The position numbers were made by a program, and so were the translations under genes. 33,484 nt of DNA, from assembly GCA_035623075.1 (NCBI GenBank), contig DASPUC010000054.1, forward strand, positions 1-33,484. Direction: 5' to 3'. The notes beneath the pieces were generated by a model that was given only the letters and a program-made list of their open reading frames with translations, made no database searches and was not told where the DNA came from. Positions 2,902 to 4,363 of this stretch are shown piece by piece. Position 1 is the stretch's first letter; each line of letters opens with the position of its first letter. The DNA comes from Nitrospiraceae bacterium (GTDB taxonomy: Bacteria; Nitrospirota; Nitrospiria; Nitrospirales; Nitrospiraceae).

Positions 2902-3648
2902 TCATCTCGATCGAAGGCGTTGGTCGAGTAACTGCAGTGTGCCAGCAGTTCGTGCCGAGAACATCCGTTCGTGTTTCGGTCGCTTCATGTCCTGCGCACA
3001 ATCCTGGATCAACGCCCGGAGATCGTCGGCAACGTCGACGTCGCGCCACTCCTTCAGGACACCGACGGTAAGACCAAGAGTCGAGGCGTTCCGGCGCGTA
3101 GCCGCAAGAACGTTTGTCGTCGACCAGGGTACATCGGTAAAGAGTTCCGGCATAGGGCGTTTCAAGCCGATGAGGTAATAACCACCGTCGCTGGCCGGGC
3201 CAAGAACCAGATCGTGCGACTCGATGAGTGAAACGGCCTGTTGATAGATCGAAAATGGGAGAGTGGGGACATCCGTCCCGACGATGAACACCTGCCGATA
3301 GCCACGGCCGAACAAGTCAACAAATGCGCGATGCATGCGCTGTCCTACATCATCTCCCACCTGATCTAAAAGACAGACGCCGTGGCGTTCTTCAAGAATT
3401 TTGAAGAATACGAGAGATGCCGAGGGAAGGCAGGCGATGTAGCGGTCGATCGACCGGCGCTCCTTGGCAATGACCGCCTTCGTTCGTTCGAGGGTGTCGA
3501 GCACAAAACTGCCGTGCAACGTGGCGGCTTCATCCTGTGTGAGCGGAGGGCACAGTCTGGTCTTCACCTGACCTGGCACCGGCGCCTTCGCGAAAATCAC
3601 TAAGGCAGTGCTGAGCCCTGAGTGCTGAGTGCTGGAATTCGACGTCAC
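2902..3648 (-). CDS. DUF2064 / TIGR04282-type glycosyltransferase-like protein
   Basis: This 248-residue protein matches the TIGR04282 'transferase 1, rSAM/selenodomain-associated' family by pattern: VIFAKAPVPGQVKTRL at the N-terminus, VGTDVPTLP with the metal-binding Asp in the middle, GPASDGGYYLIGL, and the WSTTNVLAATRRN segment. The fold is nucleotidyl/glycosyl-transferase-like (GT-A), with an unknown product. The start used is GTG at 3646-3648; GAGGTAGAG lies just upstream and overlaps the stop of the preceding gene. The first residues (about 5-14) are encoded by four tandem heptamers (3607-3634), so the native start may have been altered by repeat insertion. It forms a pair with the next gene upstream; the same two families are paired in many genomes. 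Confidence 0.82.
   Translation of the reverse strand: MTSNSSTQHSGLSTALVIFAKAPVPGQVKTRLCPPLTQDEAATLHGSFVLDTLERTKAVIAKERRSIDRYIACLPSASLVFFKILEERHGVCLLDQVGDDVGQRMHRAFVDLFGRGYRQVFIVGTDVPTLPFSIYQQAVSLIESHDLVLGPASDGGYYLIGLKRPMPELFTDVPWSTTNVLAATRRNASTLGLTVGVLKEWRDVDVADDLRALIQDCAQDMKRPKHERMFSARTAGTLQLLDQRLRSR
3607..3634. repeat. Heptanucleotide tandem repeat inside coding sequence
   Basis: Four consecutive 7-mers read AGTGCTG, AGCCCTG, AGTGCTG, AGTGCTG on the plus strand. They lie within the 5' end of the minus-strand transferase gene and encode part of the peptide SSTQHSGLST. A decayed copy of the same array is at 4184-4211. Confidence 0.85.
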
Positions 3649-3655
3649 CGTTTCT

Positions 3656-4363
3656 CTACCTCACCGCAATATAGAACCGCTGCAATTGATGGGGGCTGAC
3701 GCCGGTCCAATAGAGGAAGCGAAGTCCCCACATCAACAAGATGGTCTTGATAGGACCATGAGCCTCCCACCGGCGAAACGACGTCACGACGCGATCTCTT
3801 AACATGGCTATTCTCCCCACGCGTTTCAATCGTCGACTGAAGTCGATGTCTTCCATCAACGGGATGTCGGCAAAGCCGCCAAGCTGATCGAACGCTCCCC
3901 GTTTCACAAAAATGGCTTGATCGCCGGTAGCGATGCCGCTCCACCGAGATCGCCAGTTCATGAAGGTACTGATGATCTGTGCCAGCATGGACGGTCGATC
4001 AAATTGGACATCGAATCGTCCTCCAACCGTGACGTTGTCCGTGCACGCTGCGACAATGTCCTGCTTCGCCGTGATCGGAAGCTGGGTATCGGCATGCAGA
4101 AATATAAAGATGTCTCCCCGGCTGGCCCGCGCTCCCACATTCAGTTGGCGCGCGCGGCCATGCGGAGCCGACAGCAGCCGAACCGTGCTCAGTGTTGAGG
4201 GCTGAGTGCCGGAGATAAGTGATGCGACAATTGCACTCGTTTGATCGGTACTTCCTCCGTCGACGATAATGAGTTCGTCAAAGCCGAGGTCGGCCGTGCG
4301 CAAAATCGTATTAGCGATGATTCGTTCTTCGTTGAGGGTAGGAATGATGACGGAAATCGTCAT
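3656..4363 (-). CDS. TIGR04283-type family 2 glycosyltransferase
   Basis: This 235-residue protein is a GT-A fold family 2 glycosyltransferase. It shows SVIIPTLNEE at the N-terminus, LIIVDGGSTD with the nucleotide-sugar-binding Asp at about 35-40, FLHADT (the DxD-like metal site is HAD), GDQAIFVKR and EDIDFSRRLKR. It fits the TIGR04283 'transferase 2, rSAM/selenodomain-associated' group. Residues 51-60 (SGTQPSTLST) are encoded by a degenerate heptamer array, an insertion in the loop between the second strand and the GRA-rNxGA segment. The C-terminal part is hydrophobic/aromatic and may touch the membrane. The ATG at 4361-4363 has no clear ribosome site. The gene sits 10 bases after the membrane protein gene, and the DUF2064 partner follows after 7 bases. 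Sugar donor and acceptor are unknown. Confidence 0.85.
   Translation of the reverse strand: MTISVIIPTLNEERIIANTILRTADLGFDELIIVDGGSTDQTSAIVASLISGTQPSTLSTVRLLSAPHGRARQLNVGARASRGDIFIFLHADTQLPITAKQDIVAACTDNVTVGGRFDVQFDRPSMLAQIISTFMNWRSRWSGIATGDQAIFVKRGAFDQLGGFADIPLMEDIDFSRRLKRVGRIAMLRDRVVTSFRRWEAHGPIKTILLMWGLRFLYWTGVSPHQLQRFYIAVR
4184..4211. repeat. Degenerate heptanucleotide repeat inside coding sequence
   Basis: The plus strand reads CGTGCTC, AGTGTTG, AGGGCTG, AGTGCCG in 7-base register, a decayed version of the AGTGCTG array at 3607-3634. It lies inside the TIGR04283-type gene and is translated as GTQPSTLST, close to the peptide made by the other array. Confidence 0.75.

Follow-up and report, generated by a model that had tools for sequence, protein, structure and literature searches.

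Heptanucleotide arrays in two adjacent genes of a Nitrospiraceae bacterium belong to a dispersed period-7 repeat family

Two short arrays of seven-base repeats in adjacent genes of a Nitrospiraceae bacterium belong to a dispersed period-7 repeat family of the Nitrospiraceae, whose members also read through in the open frames of conserved genes. The window, that is, the whole stretch of DNA analysed in this study, comprises 33,484 nucleotides (contig DASPUC010000054.1, assembly GCA_035623075.1), the genome is Nitrospira-like, and the nearest named homologues come from Nitrospira MAGs. It is probable that both arrays are members of this family read through into protein, that slippage and template switching have shaped arrays of the family, and that the peptides are passengers. 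Period-7 arrays lie mostly between genes, and in the cases examined those within genes have persisted at N-termini and in segments that are variable or form loops. Open frames together with conserved flanks suggest that the arrays are translated and tolerated by the proteins, and the encoded peptides are probably tolerated passengers and not functional parts.

Table 1. Arrays and genes in the window
Feature	Position	Strand	Description
TIGR04282 family (DUF2064) gene	2902..3648	-	NCBIfam match; contains array 1
Array 1	3607..3634	+	four AGTGCTG-type heptamers, one unit AGCCCTG
TIGR04283 family glycosyltransferase 2 gene	3656..4363	-	NCBIfam match; contains array 2
Array 2	4184..4211	+	four decayed AGTGCTG-type heptamers

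Both arrays are real and lie where a first-pass annotation had placed them. Array 1 reads AGTGCTG AGCCCTG AGTGCTG AGTGCTG and array 2 reads CGTGCTC AGTGTTG AGGGCTG AGTGCCG, which match (AGTGCTG)4 in any phase at 26/28 and 23/28 positions, respectively, against a best 28-mer of 21 in 200 dinucleotide-preserving shuffles of the window; both consist of head-to-tail seven-base units beyond chance expectation, as heptanucleotide tandem repeats do. Array 2 is putatively an older, decayed copy. Translation of the minus strand reproduced the two peptides that had been reported from within adjacent transferase genes, namely STQHSGLST from the CAGCACT units of array 1 (3633..3607) and GTQPSTLST from array 2 (4210..4184). 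No hairpin or inverted partner was found for either array in the window, the glycosyltransferase loop having a fold z of -0.17, thus they are tied to the palindromic elements described below only through period, unit and dispersal, and both are ordinary one-sided members of the dispersed family.

The TIGR04282 gene scored 199.5 bits against a curated NCBIfam cut-off of 134, and array 1 encodes its residues 6-14, a variable N-terminal extension immediately before the conserved ALVIFAKAPVPG strand. The same extension carries AGTCCTC, AACCCTC, ACCCCTC or ACGCCTC units in other Nitrospira, and proteobacterial homologues with the ALVIFAKAPVPG motif start near that motif (L036, L042). The TIGR04283 gene scored 252.2 bits against a cut-off of 182, and array 2 encodes its residues 51-60, predicted to form the loop between a helix (42-52) and a strand (60-65). 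The structure model was alignment-based (34 sequences, pLDDT 93.6) and was taken in place of a single-sequence structure that was unusable (pLDDT 36); the loop is the sole weak ten-residue block (pLDDT 71) in this otherwise confident model, and is located outside the conserved glycosyltransferase motifs. The earlier view that both peptides occupy protein loops therefore holds for array 2, which falls in a surface loop, and fails for array 1, which falls in an N-terminal extension.

Alignment with homologues bore out the expectation that the peptides are insertions, i.e. lineage-specific additions, since the DGGS-to-GRA spacing of the glycosyltransferase is 16 residues in Proteobacteria and 26 in the window, while many Nitrospira have 21-26 and other Nitrospira 33-51; the same peptides in unrelated phyla, which had been named as evidence to the contrary, were absent from the aligned homologues. 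Across Nitrospira, the longer loops often contain unlike heptamers, including AGCCATC, GGGCAAT, AGTTCGA, CGTCACT, CTCAGCC and GAGGCGA. Period-7 scores of at least 14/18 were obtained in the loop of 11 of the 78 homologues; the rest of the gene gave one such score, caused by consecutive N letters in L012, and other periods gave one. A glycosyltransferase gene tree from which the loop was excluded has at least 14 changes in the loop's heptamer label (cut-off 13/18), losses and gains counted together, and at least 9 of these changes are forced by well-supported branches. A sequence from a contig labelled Nitrosospira (NOB2; L024) groups inside the Nitrospira glycosyltransferases on this tree, and its bin is probably mislabelled.

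It had been proposed that keeping the frame requires array lengths suited to the codon register, an argument that fails on simple arithmetic. Since 7 equals 1 modulo 3, a tandem 7-mer yields an identical seven-residue cycle in every frame, QHSALST for tandem CAGCACT and SAEC*VL for tandem AGTGCTG, and similar peptides therefore arise without any special register, so that the register puzzle is gone. The forward strand of AGTGCTG meets a TGA every 21 nt, and only one strand of the AGTGCTG/CAGCACT pair is open. In 18 coding arrays the two strands are unequally open, and 16 of these arrays use the stop-free strand; they are not independent events because several are related by descent. This arithmetic and these arrays show that register is not what selection acts on, but the site and the strand, which has to be free of stop codons, and an insert with a length divisible by 3 would keep the downstream frame. 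The predicted tryptic peptides spanning the two arrays are MTSNSSTQHSGLSTALVIFAK and TADLGFDELIIVDGGSTDQTSAIVASLISGTQPSTLSTVR.

A genome-wide count of the AGTGCTG repeat, as suggested in the first-pass annotation, recovered 9 copies of the exact 14-mer AGTGCTGAGTGCTG in the source genome (G000, 3.39 Mb) and 0 of its reversed control. Within the family, 17 of 37 genomes (the source among the 37) contain this 14-mer, and none of 24 genomes from the order's other families does. A survey of 757 kb of sequence counted approximate arrays as follows: 36 at period 7, 12 at period 14, 3 at period 6 and 2 at period 9, with none at periods 5, 8, 10, 11 and 13; since the sampled contigs (C23, C24, C49 and C57) were picked for AGTGCTG copies, array density is perhaps overestimated, though this has far less bearing on how the periods compare with one another. 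With the window added (790 kb), 37 period-7 arrays were counted, 21 of them intergenic and 16 within predicted genes (10 internal, 4 N-terminal and 2 C-terminal), the genes beyond the window being predicted by a simple home-made codon-usage gene caller. No approximate period-7 array was found in 400 kb of G001, a complete relative without AGTGCTG. Among 31 loci more than 300 bp apart, 18 pairs share an identical unit, whereas random 7-mers gave 0.6 such pairs on average (maximum 3) and letter-shuffled units gave 1.5 (maximum 6), thus the arrays did not each arise independently at random. The idea that the AGTGCTG repeat is spreading stands as far as its dispersal in the genome is concerned, but what spreads is broader than this one repeat and comprises many heptamer units, frequently in inverted pairs.

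Two further observations concern the distribution of repeats in these genomes. About ten arrays of the AGCCATC/AGCTATC, GCCATAC/GCTATAA and CGCCTCT types, mostly 0.5-1.5 kb apart, lie at 49782-59393 of contig C23 in the source genome (L139), a region with few predicted genes that is perhaps a cassette array or a decayed island. A sample from another family of the order (G054, L179-L198) has raised counts at period 6 and at periods 16-22, not at 7, and represents a different repeat type.

The family as a whole consists of short arrays with several related unit sequences, which occur singly or frequently paired in inverted orientation, with hairpins of about 60-110 bp. Strong hairpins, defined by a 24-base stem with at least 20 matches, have heptameric arms in 4/10 cases in the source genome, 4/9 in G009 and 3/5 in G012, a sample picked in part for AGTGCTG copies, and one hairpin has another period. 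All 9 of the 9 AGTGCTG inverted pairs are in one order; a fixed polarity of inverted pairs was considered and rejected, other units being found in the opposite order. Coding inserts occur in frame in genes of unrelated function, namely UvrA, an Lhr-like helicase, a HerA-like ATPase, a methyltransferase (REARGNTQESTPRPSPLASS) and an ArnT-like transferase, of which all but UvrA were named by reading the sequence and not by family search. Several of these inserts are in-frame palindromes with heptameric arms and short spacers, and 4 of the 8 coding inserts examined have a fold z of -3 or below. UvrA of the source genome has 29 extra residues (87 nt) relative to G001, with conserved flanks. The Lhr-like helicase (1493 residues, C57:37009-41490 of the source genome) has four separate heptamer inserts, and at two Lhr sites in G012 peptides of the AGCACTC type replace those of the CGCCTCT type. 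Similar heptamer-derived peptides occur in unrelated proteins.

How the arrays came to be dispersed may be explained in several ways. One possible, though rather doubtful, explanation is that heptamer-armed hairpins move as units, as MITEs or Rickettsia palindromic elements do, with one-armed arrays, the two in the window included, as their decayed halves. The palindromes with short spacers within several genes, the strong folds of half of the coding inserts, the empty site in UvrA, the shared units and the repeated acquisition at a single glycosyltransferase loop would all fit such movement, but the arms are highly variable in sequence, as are the spacers, both arrays of the window are unpaired, conserved ends were not found, and neither a target-site duplication nor a helper enzyme that could move them was identified for arrays or hairpins. 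We consider it unlikely that growth in place suffices, with seven-base replication slippage making arrays independently at each site and nothing copied between sites. According to PMC4679880, which cites Mrazek 2007 for the idea of polymerase slippage, many genomes have heptamers as their most frequent long repeats, and a polymerase contact length of 7 nt has been proposed, which would favour in-place growth, as would the single-change drift of units at one orthologous site (AGCACTC, AGTCCTC, AACCCTC, ACCCCTC, ACGCCTC); units that are alike but not identical, at a site shared by related species, can be explained in this way without movement. However, units are common to unrelated loci far above random expectation, many arrays stand in inverted pairs that simple slippage leaves unexplained, and the identical heptamer is abundant in some cyanobacteria.

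Selection of the Ser/Thr/Gln-rich segments for a role in the enzymes is very improbable: frames have been kept open and arrays persist in a clade, but the same site has unrelated peptides, or none, in different species, similar peptides recur in unrelated proteins, and the glycosyltransferase loop stands apart from the conserved motifs. Chance or an artefact of coding composition is scarcely credible, since even array 2, decayed and with a period-7 score (13/18) near the top of the background, exceeds all shuffles in its match to the unit of the neighbouring array and has clearer periodicity in relatives (e.g. CTCAGCACTCAGTCCTCAACACTCAG in L010), and period 7 is in genome-wide excess with no matching excess at periods 5, 8, 10, 11 and 13.

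The data bear signs of both mechanisms, movement in the manner of an element and slippage combined with template switching, and we return to translated copies of a dispersed family as the preferred explanation. An array would originate from the copying of a repeat or palindrome into a site, slippage would then lengthen or shorten it and let its unit sequence drift, and template switching may keep both arms alike. A bolder proposal, which we offer as speculation that is probably wrong in part or whole, is that Nitrospiraceae carry a new class of small mobile palindromes, with tandem-heptamer arms of changing sequence, whose in-frame insertion into conserved enzymes continually supplies new loops, and that the same process or a common enzyme makes the heptamer arrays of cyanobacteria.

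The preference of bacterial long repeats for units of 7 bases poses a long-standing question. A single genome here offers dozens of arrays built from many units, together with inverted pairs and with orthologous sites that either hold or lack an insert, thus slippage and movement become separable by comparison of close strains. Repeats that are not triplets can also enter proteins in this way, as a 7-base array is blind to frame and selection tests only its strand and site.

STRR heptanucleotide repeats of cyanobacteria were reportedly described by Mazel in 1990. In this study, (AGTGCTG)2 was found in 32 of 292 cyanobacterial genomes, three of which (G072, G106 and G255) hold 381-645 copies, with the reversed control nearly absent, and (AGTGCTG)3 was rare in Pseudomonadota (2 of 299 genomes). 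A search of plasmids with the repeat gave no match, possibly owing to a low-complexity filter. On the other hand, (AGTGCTG)3 occurs in 21 stretches of IMG/VR viral contigs (L262-L282), several of them on contig 3300005578_000008, and viral carriage is possible. Heptanucleotide repeats have been documented as TAACTGA in Beggiatoaceae (MacGregor 2015, PMC4679880) and as GGGNATC in Xanthomonas and Nostoc (Rehm 2015, PMC4692102), and are occasionally translated, at protein ends (PMC4679880, PMC4692102); TAACTGA has stops in every frame of one strand, while the other strand codes for LSVISYQ (MacGregor, PMC4679880). As described in a review (PMC10969869), Rickettsia palindromic elements are in-frame palindromes in protein genes (Ogata 2000). 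A search of an open-access library found no report of coding palindromes whose arms are heptameric and none of such repeats in Nitrospira, which is weak evidence of their absence.

The STRR, TAACTGA and GGGNATC repeats resemble the Nitrospira arrays in being 7-base direct repeats with few copies per array, dispersed and mostly intergenic, and at times located at the ends of coding sequences. The Nitrospira arrays differ from them in having many units in one genome, often in inverted pairs, and in lying internally in conserved enzymes such as UvrA, whereas the Beggiatoaceae genome has a single indirect repeat and mostly peripheral insertions. Compared by description, Rickettsia palindromic elements share with several Nitrospira coding inserts, though not with the unpaired arrays of the window, the character of short in-frame palindromes in unrelated protein genes that the proteins probably tolerate, but they are sequence families of about 150 bp, while the Nitrospira arms are 7-base repeats with varying units and their one-armed forms are common.
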